DNA of 64,000 nucleotides from a virus, in IMG/VR virus record IMGVR_UViG_3300034072_001021, positions 186,001-250,000 of that record; one strand, written 5' to 3'. Below, piece after piece: positions 3,886 to 42,271 of this stretch. Position 1 is the stretch's first letter; each line of letters opens with the position of its first letter. A model generated the notes under the pieces. It saw only the letters and a list, made by a program, of their open reading frames with translations. It was not told the origin of the DNA and did no database searches. The position numbers and the translations under genes are program-made.

Positions 3886-4309
3886 GTCCTGGGGTGTACC
3901 GTATGTGGTCACCCGTGTGACTGTTAATAACGGGCCAGGGATGGTCAGGTTTGTCATGGTTGGTCTTCCGATCGACCATCGTGAGTTGCTGAAGATACAG
4001 GACGAGCTGTACGCTTTAGGGCTCGATGTCCCGTTGTTGGACATCATAAACTGTGGTCTAATGATGCACGACATCCTGGATACCGCGATAGTGCGCAGAT
4101 GGATGCGCAACAAGAACCCCACCAAACAACGACTGTTCTTACCGGATCTTGAAAAGACGTCCGACGTGATAAGCAGTCTTTTCTCTGGTCTCATGGCATC
4201 ATTCAAATTAAATTGCAAAGCCATAGACTATGATAATGGAGAGTTACTGTTGGAGATCTCTCGCGATGTCAAATGGGATGAACTCAATCGTTTTGAACCT
4301 AAACGATGA
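3821..4309 (+). CDS. Hypothetical protein, 162 aa, overlapping both neighbours
   Basis: An open frame of 162 codons starting inside the previous gene. The start is uncertain: the ATG at 3821 has no clear ribosome site, and the conserved-looking part begins about 25 codons later. The protein ends with a strand ELLLEISRD, like the late strand of the other array members. It overlaps the next gene by 44 bases. Function unknown. Confidence 0.6.
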   Translation: MLNPEVITYRSGIVEHSKDCYRSWGVPYVVTRVTVNNGPGMVRFVMVGLPIDHRELLKIQDELYALGLDVPLLDIINCGLMMHDILDTAIVRRWMRNKNPTKQRLFLPDLEKTSDVISSLFSGLMASFKLNCKAIDYDNGELLLEISRDVKWDELNRFEPKR

Positions 4310-4718
4310 GAAGGCGCTAGGCGAGCCGGGACGAAAGTTACTCGAGCTTGTCAGCGCCCAGGTTTTAGTCTATGCCGCAATCGCATTATTCGTGTTTGAA
4401 GAGAGTTACTATGCGGACGACTTACTGGCAAATTATCCAGAACAACACATTACCTTTATAGAGTGGCTGGAGCACTTCGGTGACGCCGCCTCTAAAGAAA
4501 TTCAAGACTTAAGGACTTTCTATGAAATACCCAATGATGCGTCCGATGCGAGTCCCGGCAGAAATGCTACGCCGTATCAACTCATTCGAGTCGGATATTC
4601 GGGCTCAGATGAATACCTCTTTGTCCGAGCGTCCAAGTGTGAAAGTCATCATCACCTTGGAAACAAATGGCGAGTTCTTAACGAAAGCGATGCGGGCATG
4701 TCAGGCCACAGGTCTTAG
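4266..4718 (+). CDS. Hypothetical protein, 150 aa, long 3' overlap
   Basis: The ATG at 4266 follows GGAGA at good spacing and is preferred to an in-frame ATG at 4230. The first 85 residues look normal, with a hydrophobic helix (VLVYAAIALFVFEESYY). The last 65 residues lie entirely inside the next gene in another frame, and their codon pattern there is poor, so the tail may be overprinted or the gene may be joined to the next by a frameshift. Function unknown. Confidence 0.6.
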   Translation: MSNGMNSIVLNLNDEKALGEPGRKLLELVSAQVLVYAAIALFVFEESYYADDLLANYPEQHITFIEWLEHFGDAASKEIQDLRTFYEIPNDASDASPGRNATPYQLIRVGYSGSDEYLFVRASKCESHHHLGNKWRVLNESDAGMSGHRS

Positions 4719-5061
4719 TCTCGACCAGCTGTTTGAGGTCTTGTCTGAGAACTTCATGGCGCGCCTCAATGACACGTTCCCACTAGCCCCCATGATGGAT
4801 TCCAAGATGCCATCTCAGGCTCAACTGGAAATCCAAGACAGTATCAGTTCGATTCTCGACGAACTGGAGCGTCAGGCCCAGTTCATTAACCGTAACAACA
4901 CCGAGAGTCTCAAGATTCTGGAGATTGACAATGATGATGAATGGGCACTCATCGAACTCAAACCCCGCAATGAACCTGACGCTCCCGCTGACGCTGGTGT
5001 TACAGTTAGACTCCCGGCACGTCGAAAGAACCGACAGGCTCCTGCTAATTCCAGCAATTGA
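4522..5061 (+). CDS. Hypothetical protein, 179 aa (array member)
   Basis: AAGGA six bases before the ATG and even codon use from the first codon support this frame over the overlapping one. Features: a helical N-terminal half, a region rich in Gln and Asn (residues about 105-130), a strand EWALIELKP, then a basic, Pro/Ala-rich tail that overlaps the next gene by 92 bases. The tail looks like a run-on past the conserved core. Function unknown. Confidence 0.72.
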   Translation: MKYPMMRPMRVPAEMLRRINSFESDIRAQMNTSLSERPSVKVIITLETNGEFLTKAMRACQATGLSLDQLFEVLSENFMARLNDTFPLAPMMDSKMPSQAQLEIQDSISSILDELERQAQFINRNNTESLKILEIDNDDEWALIELKPRNEPDAPADAGVTVRLPARRKNRQAPANSSN

Positions 5062-5434
5062 AGCTGCTCTGCGCGGTCTACTGACATCGTCTATCTCGGT
5101 TCAGTTTGCCGGCCTTGTCACCTTCTGGCGAGACCTGATCAAAGAGAACATGACTTGCAATGCCATCGACTTGTCGTGGGATAGAACGCTACTAACCGTG
5201 GAGGAGGCTTTCGAACCTCTTCTCGAATCTTTAAATGTCTATGTGGAATCTCTGCGCGAATACGGTAAGATCGATAACCTTATCGTGGACGTTCTCGGAT
5301 TAAATGCAATAGACGGTAGCGTCATAGTGAGGATAAGTGATGGCCGAGACAACAGCCATAATCCACGGCGCCGGGATCTACAAGAATTTCCTAAGCGACC
5401 TGTCACAGGTCATGGATCATTCGTACGATATTGA
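4970..5434 (+). CDS. Hypothetical protein, 154 aa (array member)
   Basis: I chose the ATG at 4970; the frame stays open upstream to a TTG at 4925, and no good ribosome site decides between them. A helical body is followed by the strand SVIVRISDG and then a basic 27-residue tail lying inside the next gene. This matches the pattern of core plus overprinted tail in the preceding gene. Function unknown. Confidence 0.62.
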   Translation: MNLTLPLTLVLQLDSRHVERTDRLLLIPAIEAALRGLLTSSISVQFAGLVTFWRDLIKENMTCNAIDLSWDRTLLTVEEAFEPLLESLNVYVESLREYGKIDNLIVDVLGLNAIDGSVIVRISDGRDNSHNPRRRDLQEFPKRPVTGHGSFVRY

Positions 5435-11382: not shown

Positions 11383-13278
11383 ATGTCCGTCAACGATCCG
11401 CACAACGGTCAAGAATCCGTGAACACTGGCGCCGAGCAGCGTCAAGACCGTGCAGCCCCTCAGCAGCAACAGCGTCAGGCCCCGGTGGTTAACTCCATCC
11501 TCGACCTGAACCGTCTCCTGGGTGGCGGCATGTCCCGTCGCACCAGCGGTGAACAACTGATCGCCGCCATCGCCGCCTGCAAGTTCTGGTTCTCCGCTGA
11601 CCGTCAACTGGCCGCCGCCGGTGGCATCGATCTGACCAAGATCCAGGTGATCGGCCTGGAAGCTTCCGAGCACAACGTCGAGGTCTCCTCGGTCATCCTG
11701 GCCTACCCGGTCGAGTCCCAGGGCACCCTGCGTGTTCTGACTCACTTCCTGGCCCTGGAATCCAGCCTGGCTGAAGAGAACCAGGTCCGTACCGTCAACC
11801 TGAACCATCGCGACTACCCGCTGCCGGTAGTGGTCTCCGACTACATGACCGAGTCCTACATGGCTCTGGTCGATGAGATCGTGAAGAAGCACTTCGAGCA
11901 GTCCCGTCGCAACGTCGAAGTACAGCGTGCCGGCTGGCGCACCGTCTCCCGCAAGGTCAACTTCTCCGAGCCGGAAAGCACCGAAGCCCGCAACGTCGTG
12001 TTCTACGCCCAGGCGGCCATCGTGGCCATGTACAACCACGTCTACGAGCGTGACCTGTACTTCAGCCTCGAGTGGCTGAGCAAGAACTCCACCCTCGAGA
12101 TCTCGGTCGACATGTCCGGCCGTGAGGCCCACAGCGCCGATGGCCTGCCGCGCCGCCGCGACATCGCGGTGAACGTAGCCGGTAAGGTGGCCAAGGGCGA
12201 CCAGACTGCTTCGGTTGGCCTGGCCAGCCTGGGTGGTTACGTCAGCCTGATGTACTCGCCGCCCCAGGACGAAGACCGCTGGAATCGCAACGTCCGTCGC
12301 GATACCCCGTACTTCACTCCGACCCTGATCATCAACGCCATCGACACCGGCACCAACAGCATCACTGCTGAGCAGCTGCTGCTCGGTCTGGCCGGCGCTT
12401 CGGTGATCAGCTCCAACCAGGCGTGGGCTCAGACCTTCCTGCCGGGCGAAGTTGCCCGCGGTGAGATCGACTACCGTGACACCGGCCTCCTGGGCCTGCT
12501 CGGTCCGGACAAGACCGCTTTCGAGATCGAAGCACGTACCAACCTCGACACCGACAAGTGGGGTCAGTACTTCTTCTCCCTCGTGAACGAGAACCTGGCC
12601 TGGGCTATCGAACTCGAGGAGGGTGGTGACAACTCCTGGATCATGGGTCTGCTGCTCGACGCTGCTTCCGACACCAGCCCGAACCGTGACGCCGTACGTC
12701 GTCTGTACGACTTCGCCGATCGTCTGACCAACAACAACTTCTCCCGTCGCGCTGCCGAACTGGACGTCACCGTCCCGCTGCAGCTGTCCGGTGCCCGTTA
12801 CCTGACCGGTACCTGGATCGACGAGCGTGGTGAAGAGCGTGACCTGCGCGAGTGGGATCTGCTCCGTTGGATGGCCCAGAACCCGACCGACGAAGGCACC
12901 TCGGCCCTGAACTACCAGGACGTCATCGACCGCGTCGACCTAGACGTGGAAGTGCGCGTATCCGAGCAGTTCACCCAGCTGACCAGTGCTCTGGGCGCGT
13001 CGAACGTGAAGTTCAGCCGCTACGTCGACCTGGCGTACATCAATCCGAAGTTCATCCAGGCCCTGGCCGCTGCTGTGGCAGACTGCAAGATCAACATCGA
13101 TCAGCGCAGCGCTCACTACAGCTTCGGCGCTCGTCGTCTGCGTGGCAACACTCGCATCCGCGATTTCGTGGGTGGCGACCTGACCAACGGCATGCTGTCC
13201 AGCCGTCGGATCGGTGGCAACGAGCGTTCCCTGCGTGGTCACGTGGGCAACGGCTTCGGCCATGGTTCGTCCTTCTAA
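11383..13278 (+). CDS. chmA: Chimallin (ChmA), phage nucleus shell protein
   Basis: A 631-residue protein, the length I recall for 201phi2-1 gp105. ChmA self-assembles into the single-layer lattice that encloses phage DNA in the cytoplasm. Supporting features: Gln/Arg/Pro-rich flexible N-terminal 35 residues and a flexible Arg/Gly-rich C-terminal 50 residues, as expected for the segments that lace subunits together; a folded two-domain core between; extreme C-ending codon bias, as expected for the most abundant early protein; its own early-type promoter; and the next gene is the nvRNAP beta-prime N half, exactly the phiKZ gp54-gp55 order. AAGGAGTG precedes the ATG. The assignment rests on length, layout, expression signal and synteny rather than on an alignment, so a structure prediction would settle it. 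Confidence 0.85.
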   Translation: MSVNDPHNGQESVNTGAEQRQDRAAPQQQQRQAPVVNSILDLNRLLGGGMSRRTSGEQLIAAIAACKFWFSADRQLAAAGGIDLTKIQVIGLEASEHNVEVSSVILAYPVESQGTLRVLTHFLALESSLAEENQVRTVNLNHRDYPLPVVVSDYMTESYMALVDEIVKKHFEQSRRNVEVQRAGWRTVSRKVNFSEPESTEARNVVFYAQAAIVAMYNHVYERDLYFSLEWLSKNSTLEISVDMSGREAHSADGLPRRRDIAVNVAGKVAKGDQTASVGLASLGGYVSLMYSPPQDEDRWNRNVRRDTPYFTPTLIINAIDTGTNSITAEQLLLGLAGASVISSNQAWAQTFLPGEVARGEIDYRDTGLLGLLGPDKTAFEIEARTNLDTDKWGQYFFSLVNENLAWAIELEEGGDNSWIMGLLLDAASDTSPNRDAVRRLYDFADRLTNNNFSRRAAELDVTVPLQLSGARYLTGTWIDERGEERDLREWDLLRWMAQNPTDEGTSALNYQDVIDRVDLDVEVRVSEQFTQLTSALGASNVKFSRYVDLAYINPKFIQALAAAVADCKINIDQRSAHYSFGARRLRGNTRIRDFVGGDLTNGMLSSRRIGGNERSLRGHVGNGFGHGSSF

Positions 13279-33217: not shown

Positions 33218-36088
33218 TTATAATCCGTAATATGCCAGCACATTTTGACGGGACTTCTCGTTAGGGATGTCCTTCAGCACGTCTTCCCACTTGATCAGAC
33301 GCTTCACAGCCAGGTCACGCTTTTCCGGATCAGCAGTCGACATCAGCACCGAGGTCAGGTTGTTGAAGTTACGCAGGCCTTTGGTACCGATGGCCATCTG
33401 ACCAACACCGGTGTAGATCTTCTTGGCCGAGCAGATATCTTTGCTGTGCTCGTGGAAGAAGTTCAGCAGCTCAGTCCAGCCTTGGACGAAGTCTTCGCCA
33501 TCCAGACGCAGGACACGACTGATGCAGCGATCCAGCAGGGTCTGGTACGGCGCTGCTTTCACAGCGTTGTCACCAGCTTCATCACGACCTTTGGCGTAGC
33601 TCTTCAGGTCTTCGCTCACGAACTTGACAGTCATCGTCATTGACTCCTCATGAATGTCACTGATACGCTTCTTAATGGAAGCAGCGTCCAGTTGGGTTGA
33701 AATACTGAACAGACGAGCAGCACGACTTGCAAGTGCAGCTTCATCTGTGTTGATGCCTGGAAGGATCTGACCACGGGCCCAAGCTTTGATCTCGCGCTTA
33801 GTCCAGTGTTCTACCTTACGATGGTCACGGTTCCGATCGCGGACGTAGATGCCCGACGGTGTGGATGGAACCCGAATACCGTTGAGAACATAAGATCTGG
33901 CATCTTCACGGTACCAGAAGACCGGTACTTTGAATCTGACGTAGATCTCTTCCCAGAGGTCTTCTTCAGGCGCCTTCTCAGTAGCTGAGATTTGCTTTCG
34001 CAACCATGCCTTCAGTTCAGCGTCACGCCATTCGATTGGCAGCTTATTTGGACGAGTGGGATCATTGATGAACACACCGTCTTCGAGCGCCAATGGACGT
34101 ACGTTGGATTTCAGATAATCAACAACCTCATCGACAGACCAGTGCACAGCACTTGTGTTGAACTGCACGCTAATCAAACGCTTTGCACGTTCGATGCACT
34201 CTGGATCACGCACCGAGAAATCAGCATGGACTTCGTCATTGGCCAAAGCCTTGATTTCGTCCCACGACCATGACAGAGGACTGTCCAACTTACGCAACCG
34301 ATCTTCAACCAGAACACCGTTGGTGGTCTTGAGAGGGTTCACCGAGTTGCGGTAGAAGTTGTAGATGTGATCGTCAGTCCAGTGCGGATCGATCCTGAAC
34401 TTAGAACGGATAGCCAGAAGAACATCTGCTTCAGAGAAGTTAGATGCTTTCACATCACCTTTCAGATACCCGATCAACTCCTCCTCACTTGCGTAATTCG
34501 GATTTGTGATTTCAGGCAGTTCTTCAGCAGGCGTCTCACCATTTGCAATGTAAGCAATCGCTTGCTCATCATTGTAACGGTCTGGCACTCGGAACTTGAT
34601 CCGAGCAGAAAGCAGCACCAGGCTCTTGGGTTTGCTGGTGTTGGCCTTACCTTGAGCCCAGGCCTTCAATGTCTCTGTAGACCAGTCTGCCGGATGTTCC
34701 TTGTCACGGTTCCGATCATTGAGCAGTACGCCGCTGTTAAAGCCCTCTGGGAGCTTCCCTGTAGCGAAGTAAGCATGAAGGTCAACGTCTGTCCAGTTAT
34801 CGACAGCTGTCGTACAACGCGCTCGTAGAGCGGCCATGAGCGTGGCATGTGTGACATTCATCCCCATGGGGATCAGACCCCACACCCAGCCGATCAGCTC
34901 AGACGCAGTCCATTCGGAGGCAGTCAGGAACTTACGCCGTTCGACATTGTCGATGACTTCCTTACCGATAGCGTGACAGAGTGCATTTACCAGTTCTTTA
35001 TCTTCGGTAACGACCACGGAAACTTGAGAAGGTTCTTCGTGAACTTCCTCATTGACCACAATGGGTTCTTCCGACGTGCCCTCACTGACGACATCATCAA
35101 CTGGGAGATCGTCTGCCGATGCAACTTCTTCGACAACGACGGGTTCTTCGTCATGGTCTTCTTGGACGACCTCTGCTTCATCCTCGGTTGGATTACTTTC
35201 GGTAACCTCATCGATGACTTCCTCTTCTACCGGATAACGGGCAGCAAGTACAGCAGACGCTTCAGTATCACCACTTTCAATCAGACTGTTCAGTTGATCG
35301 TCCGAGTAAGAAGCGTAATCATGAGTGAAGCTCGGGACTTCTCCAGTGGACACCCAATGACGAAGCTCGTCGATACCCCAGAACCATTCACCACCAAAGT
35401 GACTGATCGCTGTCTTCAACAACTCGGGGTTATCGGACTCGATCTCACCGAGTACCCAAGCGTGCAGCTCAGGATCACTCCACTTGTCCGCCTCTTTATC
35501 GAGACGATTACGATCATTGACCAACACACCTGTGCTAGTCATTGCCGGATAAACAGATTTCTGGATGTACTGGCAGTAATCTTCGAACGTGATGCCCATC
35601 GGCAACTCGAAACGGTTACATGCCTCATCAATGGCGTACATCTGGTATTTCTCAGGGGTTCCGAAGAACCCCATGCCCAGATCAATCAACTCACTGTCAT
35701 TCCAGTGAGTGGCATCTTTGACCCAGCGATCTGGATCGTTGACGTAGTTGCCGTTGATGGTCTTCTCAGGGACCTTCTCGAAGAGCAGCCAGTTGTCGAG
35801 GTCTTCTTCACCCCAACTTACAGCATCTTTATCTTCGAGCACGGCCTTGGAACGCACTGCTACGTAGAACTCAGTGGTGCCGGTAGTGTAGTTGGTGAAC
35901 AGTTCGCCAGACGCTAGGGCGTACAGTTCAGCCAGACTCCACTCGTTGAGAGGTTTGGCCTCACGCTCAACGTCGCCCACCCAGAGACCGTTACTGGTCT
36001 TGGCTGGTTCTCTCCCGAACTGCTCGTACAAAGAGACTTCTCTCTTCGACCAAGCAGCAGGATAGCGGCCGTCGTATTTGTCGGACAT
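33218..36088 (-). CDS. Large modular repeat protein, 956 aa
   Basis: Seven copies of a unit with the core G-v-x-v-x-D-r-x-R, then five to seven residues, W, then x3-E-l-k-a-W-a-x-G occur near residues 34-62, 113-140, 187-216, 453-481, 590-620, 670-700 and 746-775. Most are preceded by a second half-unit (W-x3-D-l-x2-Y, then a Pro), so the full repeat is about 75-90 residues. Residues 286-360 are an acidic Glu/Val-rich linker without the repeat. The last 150 residues are helical and non-repetitive. AAGGATC lies before the ATG. I do not recognise the repeat; the paired short helices with conserved Trp recall small nucleic-acid or peptide-binding helix-hairpin domains. It lies next to the virion RNAP beta-prime gene on the same strand and is probably co-transcribed. 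Confidence 0.82.
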   Translation of the reverse strand: MSDKYDGRYPAAWSKREVSLYEQFGREPAKTSNGLWVGDVEREAKPLNEWSLAELYALASGELFTNYTTGTTEFYVAVRSKAVLEDKDAVSWGEEDLDNWLLFEKVPEKTINGNYVNDPDRWVKDATHWNDSELIDLGMGFFGTPEKYQMYAIDEACNRFELPMGITFEDYCQYIQKSVYPAMTSTGVLVNDRNRLDKEADKWSDPELHAWVLGEIESDNPELLKTAISHFGGEWFWGIDELRHWVSTGEVPSFTHDYASYSDDQLNSLIESGDTEASAVLAARYPVEEEVIDEVTESNPTEDEAEVVQEDHDEEPVVVEEVASADDLPVDDVVSEGTSEEPIVVNEEVHEEPSQVSVVVTEDKELVNALCHAIGKEVIDNVERRKFLTASEWTASELIGWVWGLIPMGMNVTHATLMAALRARCTTAVDNWTDVDLHAYFATGKLPEGFNSGVLLNDRNRDKEHPADWSTETLKAWAQGKANTSKPKSLVLLSARIKFRVPDRYNDEQAIAYIANGETPAEELPEITNPNYASEEELIGYLKGDVKASNFSEADVLLAIRSKFRIDPHWTDDHIYNFYRNSVNPLKTTNGVLVEDRLRKLDSPLSWSWDEIKALANDEVHADFSVRDPECIERAKRLISVQFNTSAVHWSVDEVVDYLKSNVRPLALEDGVFINDPTRPNKLPIEWRDAELKAWLRKQISATEKAPEEDLWEEIYVRFKVPVFWYREDARSYVLNGIRVPSTPSGIYVRDRNRDHRKVEHWTKREIKAWARGQILPGINTDEAALASRAARLFSISTQLDAASIKKRISDIHEESMTMTVKFVSEDLKSYAKGRDEAGDNAVKAAPYQTLLDRCISRVLRLDGEDFVQGWTELLNFFHEHSKDICSAKKIYTGVGQMAIGTKGLRNFNNLTSVLMSTADPEKRDLAVKRLIKWEDVLKDIPNEKSRQNVLAYYGL

Positions 36089-40764: not shown

Positions 40765-40792
40765 GCAGGGGGTAAATCCCCCTGCTTTCTAT
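40765..40792 (+). terminator. Rho-independent terminator
   Basis: An 8-bp stem (40765-40772 with 40778-40785), then TTTCTATTT. Confidence 0.8.
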
Positions 40793-40809
40793 TTCGAATT
40801 AAAGGAAGT

Positions 40810-40820
40810 TATACATTATA
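40810..40820 (+). promoter_or_regulatory. Early-type promoter box for macrodomain operon
   Basis: TATACATTATA, 70 bases before the macrodomain start, with AT-rich sequence upstream. Confidence 0.6.
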
Positions 40821-40890: not shown

Positions 40891-41337
40891 ATGTCATTGG
40901 ACATCATCGAAGCCGATCTCTTCGATATCCAGGCAGATACCAAAGTCATCACGATTAACCTCGTTGGTGCCATGGGTGCAGGTGTCGCAAAGACTGCCAG
41001 AGATACAATCCCTGGACTGTATAAGCATTACAAGAAGATGTATCCGACTATCACACCGGATCAATTCATCCAGTATACCTACGGTGGAGTGAAATACCTC
41101 CTCGTCCCCACGAAGATTGATTGGAAAGCTCCATCGCCTCGTGACCTCGTATTGTCCAACCTTCACCGGTTGGCGTATCTGACCCGACGCTATAACGGGT
41201 TTGGTACAGTAGCCTTGCCACCAATGGGGTGTGGTAATGGTGGGCTGGATTGGGAGAATGATATCGTGAATTTCTATCACGCGTTGTTCGACCACCATCC
41301 TAGTAAATTTATAGCAGTAATAAAACCAAACCAGTAA
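40891..41337 (+). CDS. DarG-like macrodomain protein
   Basis: 148 residues, a single macrodomain. N23 and the glycine loop GAMGAG (26-31) match the ADP-ribose binding loop; VPTKIDW (72-78) matches the block with the lysine used by DarG/TARG1-type hydrolases; ALPPMGCGNGGLDW (108-121) is the typical second loop of that subgroup. DarG removes ADP-ribose from thymidine in DNA and so undoes the DarT toxin. A phage copy without the rest of DarG could protect phage DNA from host DarT-type defence, or hydrolyse another ADP-ribose product. It has its own early-type promoter and is followed 9 bases later by a phosphatase gene. Confidence 0.88.
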   Translation: MSLDIIEADLFDIQADTKVITINLVGAMGAGVAKTARDTIPGLYKHYKKMYPTITPDQFIQYTYGGVKYLLVPTKIDWKAPSPRDLVLSNLHRLAYLTRRYNGFGTVALPPMGCGNGGLDWENDIVNFYHALFDHHPSKFIAVIKPNQ

Positions 41338-41346
41338 GGGGAAACA

Positions 41347-41787
41347 ATGGAAACTGTACGTCTTACCAACATCGGCAAACACCATCTTCCGAATATCCCA
41401 CATGACGCGCCGTTGATCAGTATCAACGACCGTTACTCTCCGGCTCCGGAGATCCCGAACCGTGACAAACGGCCTGTGCTGTTTGTCACGTTCTTTCCGG
41501 GTGACCACCTGACCAGTACCGAGCGCCATGAGGGCATGACGCCAGACCTGGCCAAGAAGATCGTCAAGTTCGTGGAAGAGCACCGCGACAAGAAGCACAT
41601 CTTCGTTCAGTGCGGTGAAGGTCGTATCCGTTCCTGGACGATCTGCAGTGTACTGGAACGCATGCTCGACTTCACTGTTCATGATACCGAGCGTGCGACC
41701 ATCAAGCAAGGCATGGTGGACAAATACACCCACCACATCCTGATGTCCACGATCGTGGATATGGAGCAGGCTGGTGAACTGCTGTAA
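41347..41787 (+). CDS. Cysteine-based protein phosphatase-like protein (CX5R)
   Basis: 146 residues. VQCGEGRIRSW carries the CX5R(S) loop of protein tyrosine and dual-specificity phosphatases: nucleophile Cys89, Arg95 and Ser96. The residue before Cys is Gln rather than the usual His. A GDHL segment near residue 53 could be the general-acid loop. AAGGGG before the ATG; same operon as the macrodomain. Possible substrates are phosphoproteins, nucleotides or phosphorylated ADP-ribose products (macrodomains and phosphatases can act in the same pathway), but none can be chosen from the sequence. Confidence 0.8.
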   Translation: METVRLTNIGKHHLPNIPHDAPLISINDRYSPAPEIPNRDKRPVLFVTFFPGDHLTSTERHEGMTPDLAKKIVKFVEEHRDKKHIFVQCGEGRIRSWTICSVLERMLDFTVHDTERATIKQGMVDKYTHHILMSTIVDMEQAGELL

Positions 41788-41820
41788 AAAATAACGGCAG
41801 TAAGCTATATTTTGTAGAAG

Positions 41821-42238
41821 TGTCTGTCGCTCGAGTTGCCCCCGATAAGAGCGACAGACATGACTACACATCGTCCTTGCTGAATGAAGCCCGCGATGAA
41901 AAACAAGAGGCAGAAACAACGAGTGGGGTTAGTCGCCACTCTTGTCCAAAATGGTGAACTTACGGGGTAGCCTGAAAACTGTACCGGCTTAGTCAGCTGG
42001 TGAACCGTACGATCCTCTTCTGGATCTGGAGCGTAGCCCTCTCCATTCGGAGACGGTTAACTCCAGGGACTAATCCAGTTTTGGGTAAGTTGTTTGCGTA
42101 TCTTTCTGCATAGCCTGACGAGGGCATAGCAGGACAGGACGCACGCAGCCGTTGAGTCCTATAGATCCACCGGTGAGGCCGCCCGAAAGGGCCGCCGGGC
42201 TGCCGGGTACGGATTTGCTGGCCAGCCTATAGGACTCA
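41821..42238 (+). ncRNA. Structured non-coding RNA block 1
   Basis: From 41788 to 42271 there is no credible coding frame. Visible helices: an 11-bp stem 41821-41831 with 41850-41860; GAGTGG...CCACTC near 41920; and an 11-bp stem 42153-42163 with 42228-42238 that encloses a GC-rich domain with a CCC-GAAA-GGG tetraloop hairpin. Perfect long stems closing internal domains are typical of a functional RNA rather than spacer. It is transcribed in the same direction as the upstream operon, and a small gene follows. Confidence 0.6.
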
Positions 42239-42271
42239 TAGTACTAATTCAACCACCATGAGGACGACCTC

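Follow-up and report, generated by a model that had tools for sequence, protein, structure and literature searches.

A stand-alone DarG-like macrodomain and a lineage-specific phosphatase neighbour in a probable nucleus-forming jumbo phage

Introduction

The N-terminal macrodomain of DarG, which strips ADP-ribose from thymidine in DNA, is known from structures of the T. aquaticus (5m31 and 5m3e), M. tuberculosis (5m3i) and Thermosipho (7omu) proteins. For the T. aquaticus enzyme (TaqDarG), Jankevicius et al. describe the K80A variant as inactive and N22A as the next most affected, and K29E impairs activity (PMC5179494). A stacking contact with the modified thymidine was suggested for W83, W83A had a small effect, and TaqDarG-macro by itself rescues cells from DarT (PMC5179494).

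One study reports Macro domains for 56% of jumbo phages and suggests that they counteract defences that rely on ADP-ribose (PMC9503650). A jumbo-phage survey takes much the same view in its section on Macro domains (PMC7824862), and a similar discussion accompanies a Pseudomonas phage macro gene located near NAD+ reconstitution genes (PMC12846349). Links with phosphatases have also been described. Thus, rhodanese-phosphatase enzymes are often coupled in host genomes to ARG, another ADP-ribose-processing domain, and in several DNA viruses one of their clades, DUF4326, occurs as a fusion with Macro, SLOG or NADAR domains (PMC9503650). For Pseudomonas phage pPa_SNUABM_DT01 (DT01), the published description names gp212 as a macro gene, along with a tyrosine phosphatase and genes of the SLOG, NADAR and NUDIX types (PMC8541153). 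In an antisense screen of approximately one fifth of the phiKZ ORFs, knockdown of the macro gene gp104 lowered ChmA without substantially changing CFU or PFU, and the authors anticipate a benefit from genes of this kind where competition is stronger or the host carries other defences (PMC12571901).

Jumbo-phage macrodomains and a proposed counter-defence role for them are therefore already published. Here we describe a macrodomain with a DarG-like active site and a lineage-specific phosphatase neighbour. The literature that we searched, outside which most subscription papers fell, yielded no report that pairs a macro gene of a phage with a phosphatase of this kind encoded by a gene of its own.

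Results and discussion

Layout of the locus

The window, i.e. the whole 64,000-nt stretch of DNA that we analysed, corresponds to positions 186001-250000 of a virus record 259,140 bases long. The nearest named relative by DNA is DT01 (74% across 21% of the stretch compared). An earlier note had placed a macrodomain gene and a phosphatase gene side by side in this window, and both ORFs were confirmed, on one strand and 9 nt apart (Table 1). The stop codon of the macro gene overlaps the ribosome-binding stretch (TAAGGGG) of the downstream phosphatase gene, and the other neighbour of the macro gene codes for a 140-aa phage protein. Both genes are under purifying selection, with pairwise omega values of 0.05-0.36 in the 14 computable pairs out of 15, a set in which one dS value is saturated and several others exceed 1 and are unreliable.

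Table 1. Coordinates of the features discussed in the window
Feature	Position	Strand	Basis or remarks
Stand-alone DarG/TARG1-class macrodomain ORF, 148 aa	40891..41337	+	Sequence, predicted fold, residues N23, T74, K75 (catalytic Lys), W78, G113-x-G115-N116-G117 loop
DUSP-fold phosphatase ORF, 146 aa	41347..41787	+	P-loop C89-GEGRI-R95-S96, candidate general acid D53
Phage promoter motif TATTTCGAATTAAAGGAAGTTATACATTAT, head of the macro-phosphatase unit	40790..40819	+	Same motif in 7/7 lineage records searched
Exact TACATTAT sites	11306, 20200, 25102, 40812	+	Each 5' of a gene
Strong RNA hairpin, 13-bp outer stem, without T-run, 3' of the phosphatase gene	41820..41861	+	Ends taken from dot-bracket
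Chimallin (phage nuclear shell) homologue	11383..13278	+	phiKZ gp54, PHROG and PDB matches
ORF with YDGDTL...IDTPE stretch	44585-45073	+	Sequence
HNH/NUMOD4-like homing endonuclease ORF, after tRNA genes	45127-45684	+	About at Pfam cut-offs

The macro protein

The Pfam Macro profile scored the macro ORF below its threshold (17 versus 22 bits). The DarG models of PADLOC and NCBIfam matched it with E values of 3.1e-21 and 6.4e-20, respectively, the NCBIfam match reaching 71.7 bits for a cut-off of 250 and spanning model positions 3-148 of 338, hence without the C-terminal half. In a phmmer search of the PDB, the top matches were three DarG structures (E values of 1.4e-14, 8.9e-11 and 2.4e-9), followed weakly by TARG1. 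The predicted model (pLDDT 90.2) superimposed on T. aquaticus DarG with ADP-ribose over 144 residues with a Z score of 21.6 and an rmsd of 1.7 Å (VIA comparison). Four DarG entries headed the fold ranking (Z scores of 21.6, 21.2, 21.0 and 19.9). TARG1 (C6orf130), which has the same lysine position and belongs to the same class, was the next-best characterised fold (Z score of 18.0, 16-17% identity), and Poa1p came after it (15.8).

The active site of DarG is largely preserved. K80, N22, T79 and W83 of TaqDarG correspond to K75, N23, T74 and W78 of the macro ORF, and G117, G119, N120 and G121 to G113, G115, N116 and G117. In contrast, K29 is replaced by an alanine (A30), and the protein, 24-29% identical to the DarG macrodomains, stands alone without a C-terminal half or an adjacent DarT. 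Across the 77 phage macro sequences in the alignment, K75, N23 and T74 never vary, and W78 is shared by 75; the patterns used to collect these sequences contain N23, the following G loop and the P110 loop, so that these columns are in part conserved by construction, and K75 and W78 lie outside the patterns. The earlier note had proposed a DarG-type macrodomain with ADP-ribose loops and a 'hydrolase lysine block'. DarG as the top match in both sequence and predicted fold bears out the former; the latter is real, K75 being its catalytic Lys.

The macro fold, the GxG loop after the second strand and the Lys-based active site place the protein in the ALC1-like class (DarG/TARG1). Its loop reads GNGGL, where TARG1 presumably has GLDRL. 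It carries the ADP-ribose loops and catalytic Lys of the DarG type, and at only 148 aa it is devoid of the C-terminal DarT-interacting half of DarG. In the record, DarT (PF14487) gave no match, with control matches in 2 of 14 genomes, and neither a second macrodomain by PF01661 nor a NADAR protein was found (the NADAR control matched in 3 of 14). Macro_2 (PF14519, the type at DT01 gp212) gave no match, but its control also matched nowhere.

The fold ranking bears on two possible roles. The main one suggested for phage Macro domains is to clear small ADP-ribose derivatives (PMC9503650), which here could be ADPr-1''-phosphate, His-ADPR/IAD-like Thoeris signals or other TIR products. ADPR-base signals are used by Thoeris systems with macro effectors (PMC11204291), and a NUDIX gene is present in the same record. 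We nevertheless regard this role as doubtful for the macro ORF, the closest folds being those of the macromolecule de-ADP-ribosylases DarG and TARG1, not that of Poa1p. It is very improbable that the macro protein serves RNA repair by removing the ADPr-1''-phosphate left by 2'-phosphate transfer to NAD+. This is known macrodomain chemistry (PMC9503650), but no KptA/Tpt1 was found in the record (control matched in 4 of 14 genomes), and the fold is nearer to DarG than to Poa1p.

The phosphatase

The predicted model of the phosphatase ORF (pLDDT 94.7) aligned with DUSP structures over 116-128 residues (VIA comparison), with Z scores of 10-11.8 and 7-16% identity. The residues C89 (CX5R), R95, S96 and D53 are invariant in the nine aligned rows, and D53, which sits in FFPGDH, is the candidate general acid. 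The protein thus combines a predicted PTP fold with a C-x5-R-S/T loop, and profile comparison ties it to phiKZ gp40 (59 columns, probability 94.7), which is annotated as a dual specificity phosphatase and encoded beside PhuZ. Other searches were weak: the DSPc profile gave an E value of 0.18, phmmer returned no real match in the PDB and Foldseek by itself reached a best E value of 2.2e-3. We therefore base the DUSP assignment on the VIA Z scores, the profile link to gp40 and the CX5R loop. The Cys-based CX5R phosphatase described in the earlier note accordingly stands, with its loop intact and a DUSP fold in the predicted model.

The phosphatase is probably functional, with a substrate of its own, although to name phospho-ribose as that substrate would be a guess. 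Macrodomains of the Poa1p type hydrolyse ADP-ribose-1''-phosphate themselves, so that a second enzyme would be unnecessary for this compound. No relatives of the phosphatase were found among 569 pattern stretches from bacterial genomes. Phosphatases similar to phiKZ gp40 occur in small Pseudomonas phages too. In phage 201phi2-1 (EU197055.1), a homologue of the gp40 type at 33649-33939 carries the annotation of a structural protein of the virion, a hint that this class of phosphatases may be packaged.

A candidate early promoter

The promoter motif at the head of the unit, TATTY-N-TACATTAT, ends 71 nt 5' of the macro start codon. Its exact core, TACATTAT, occurs four times in the window for 0.70 expected, always on the + strand, and none of 100 shuffles reached four. 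The genes that it heads code for the chimallin homologue, a PHROG 3209 protein of unknown function, RNA polymerase beta and the macro protein. Across the entire record, the longer pattern occurs at three places and the reversed control at none. The longer pattern also heads the macro unit, with either no gene or a single gene intervening, in six of six further lineage records, two of which gave one control match each; the resulting count of seven out of seven, window included, is not fully independent for the window and several relatives, as the pattern was drawn up after viewing their upstream stretches. A looser motif with one mismatch was found 12 times for 10.9 expected, and only the exact core is informative. 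No sigma-70-like site was identified at the macro-phosphatase unit, and we rejected a host sigma-70 promoter.

According to a review, each jumbo phage with its own RNA polymerases has an AT-rich motif of ~10 nt located 5' of presumed early operons, and where transcripts were profiled this motif was the early promoter (PMC7598289). Middle and late promoters of such phages could not be predicted there (PMC7598289). By analogy, the TACATTAT motif is a candidate vRNAP (early) promoter of the lineage, and early expression of the macro-phosphatase unit is likely. Since the genes for RNA polymerase beta and the PHROG 3209 protein have the motif at their head too, this timing is inferred. The early-type promoter claimed for this locus is thus upheld as a phage motif without a sigma-70-like site, its timing remaining by analogy, and the 9-nt gap and the single promoter motif support the claimed co-transcription of the two genes.

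Distribution of the pair

Macro genes with 56-65% identity to the one in the window were found on 13 IMG/VR contigs. The phosphatase gene is found 3' of the macro gene in 12 of these contigs, as well as in the window and in DT01, i.e. in 14 of 15 lineage records, with no or one gene between the two. DT01 gp174 and gp176 (MW735835) share the lineage, gene order and promoter of the window, with 59% identity for the macro and 42% for the phosphatase proteins. They differ from the window in that one gene separates them, and gp174 was deposited as hypothetical. DT01 (MW735835.1) has two macro genes, gp174 and gp212, the latter beside a YspA-type SLOG gene.

The exception among the lineage records is the 51-kb fragment L020, in which, at 4001-5241, the macro gene is directly followed by the next syntenic gene and no phosphatase gene was found in the fragment. 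It would offer a natural comparison, with the macro gene kept and the phosphatase gene absent, provided that a phage of this kind is isolated. Between L007 and L010, identity is 95% for the macro proteins and only 74% for the phosphatases; possibly, the phosphatase gene was replaced separately from the macro gene, as an allele replacement within the unit.

Beyond this lineage, no phosphatase gene was found near any of 67 more distant macro loci, with flanks of up to 4 kb per side and some loci cut by contig ends; the macro loci compared were the best 80 of 294, and L022/L023 and L027/L028 are near duplicates. A phosphatase profile scan of 22 whole records gave matches in five lineage records and weak ones in phiKZ and Psa21; the remaining 15 records, which include the L020 fragment, were without a match. 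The macro and phosphatase homologues are ~74 kb (phiKZ) and ~80 kb (Psa21) apart, with the phosphatase gene by PhuZ. The stand-alone macrodomains of jumbo phages, such as phiKZ gp104 (29% identical over its length), are homologous to the macro ORF, and gp104 differs in having no linked phosphatase, gp40 lying 74 kb off. The macro-phosphatase pairing is lineage-bound, and we rejected a two-gene module conserved across jumbo phages. The possible module of the earlier note is consequently not supported as a defined anti-DarT unit, the phosphatase being linked in one lineage only and missing in one of its members.

A single pathway, in which the phosphatase takes a phosphate off the ADP-ribose product freed by the macro protein or off its breakdown product, would fit the 9-nt spacing, the single promoter motif and the retention of the phosphatase in nearly all lineage records even though the intervening genes differ. 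In cells, a phosphatase occurs in just over 55% of the neighbourhoods of ARG (ADP-ribosyl glycohydrolase) domains, mostly of the rhodanese-phosphatase superfamily (PMC9503650). The L020 fragment, the 67 distant loci, the separate locations in phiKZ and Psa21 and the gp40-like phosphatases of small Pseudomonas phages all argue against such a pathway, and linkage is weak evidence because the lineage is generally syntenic. We consider it rather unlikely.

The nuclear shell and the possible targets of the macro protein

The chimallin homologue in the window matches phiKZ gp54 (E value of 4.2e-22), the PHROG nuclear shell protein (1.3e-65) and the chimallin/PhuN entries of the PDB (1.4e-23 to 8e-14). 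A chimallin homologue is a trait of Chimalliviridae, and the phage, known here from the virus record alone, is probably a nucleus-forming jumbo phage. Such phages are described as shielding their replicating DNA from DNA-targeting defences.

The earlier note had viewed the pair as a possible anti-defence module that removes ADP-ribose marks early in infection, with DarT and its reversal by DarG as the model. That the macro protein is an anti-DarT enzyme, stripping ADP-ribose from thymidine in phage DNA like DarG, would agree with DarG macrodomains being its closest characterised relatives, with the rescue activity of the isolated TaqDarG macrodomain and with the retention as W78 of W83, the putative thymidine-stacking residue. 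The small effect of W83A makes W78 weak evidence of the substrate. In addition, DarG's C-terminal half has no counterpart in the protein, whose score is far below the cut-off of the full-length DarG model, and the phage-encoded anti-DarT protein AdfB is described as working likely by interaction with DarT (PMC11481870). As the chimallin homologue implies that the phage DNA is shielded, repair of DarT-modified DNA is less favoured than a cytoplasmic role, and we find an anti-DarT enzyme unlikely. A DNA target may still be exposed in the first minutes of infection, or be reached by import of the macro protein. Thus, of the anti-defence module, a general counter-defence role survives as the likeliest reading; the absence of a DarG C-terminal half and of DarT in the record, and the probable shielding of the DNA, speak against the defined anti-DarT part.

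We propose instead that the macro protein is an early lysine-dependent ADP-ribosyl hydrolase of the DarG/TARG1 class and an accessory counter-defence enzyme of a nucleus-forming jumbo phage, most likely cytoplasmic, a proposal that we hold to have about an even chance of being right. The macro-phosphatase unit would be made early from the phage promoter motif. The macro protein would then act in the host cytoplasm, not in repair of phage DNA, on targets outside the phage nucleus such as exported mRNA, RNA ends or proteins of the phage or the host; alternatively, it may clear an ADP-ribose-based signal. The DUSP-fold phosphatase, presumably co-transcribed, could share a pathway with it. This reading draws on DarG as the top match by sequence and fold with key residues conserved, on the promoter motif common to the chimallin gene, on the chimallin homologue itself, since nucleus-forming phages exclude DNA-targeting defences, and on the effect of phiKZ gp104 knockdown on ChmA, together with the benefit against other defences expected by the authors of that screen. 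Against it, catalysis is predicted from sequence and model, with an alanine at the position equivalent to K29, and 'nucleus-forming' comes from homology only. Moreover, macrodomains may bind without catalysis: the macrodomain of ThsA binds ADPR and is described as inactive, both as a deacetylase and as a glycohydrolase, towards the two compounds tried (PMC11204291).

A more elaborate version is quite improbable. It is a two-enzyme, lineage-specific pathway in which an early cytosolic eraser would remove ADP-ribose from exported mRNA or RNA ends, a target beyond the protection of the phage nucleus, and the DUSP-fold enzyme would dephosphorylate the released product or the freed RNA or protein end. 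If true, a DarG-type eraser would here be directed at RNA instead of DNA.

The phage nucleus largely blocks DNA-targeting defences, yet the catalytic Lys of DarG is kept in every phage macro sequence that we aligned. This raises the question of which ADP-ribose mark outside the phage nucleus is worth erasing. Since a knockdown of phiKZ gp104 already exists in a laboratory phage, this question can be tested directly.

Other features 3' of the unit

The ~660 nt at 41788-42451 are without a convincing gene. The 41790-41880 segment folds with -35.1 kcal/mol (z score of -4.99), and the hairpin that it contains is possibly a transcript end or a processing site. The 41890-42260 segment also folds better than its shuffles (z score of -3.95), with no match in Rfam and no similar DNA in phage records; in the non-coding stretch 3' of the unit, only two tRNAs reached the Rfam gathering scores. 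A structured RNA near the tRNAs within 41788-42451 is possible. Farther downstream, the YDGDTL...IDTPE stretch of the ORF that precedes the putative homing endonuclease gene is one that we take to be typical of thermonuclease-like (SNase) proteins.
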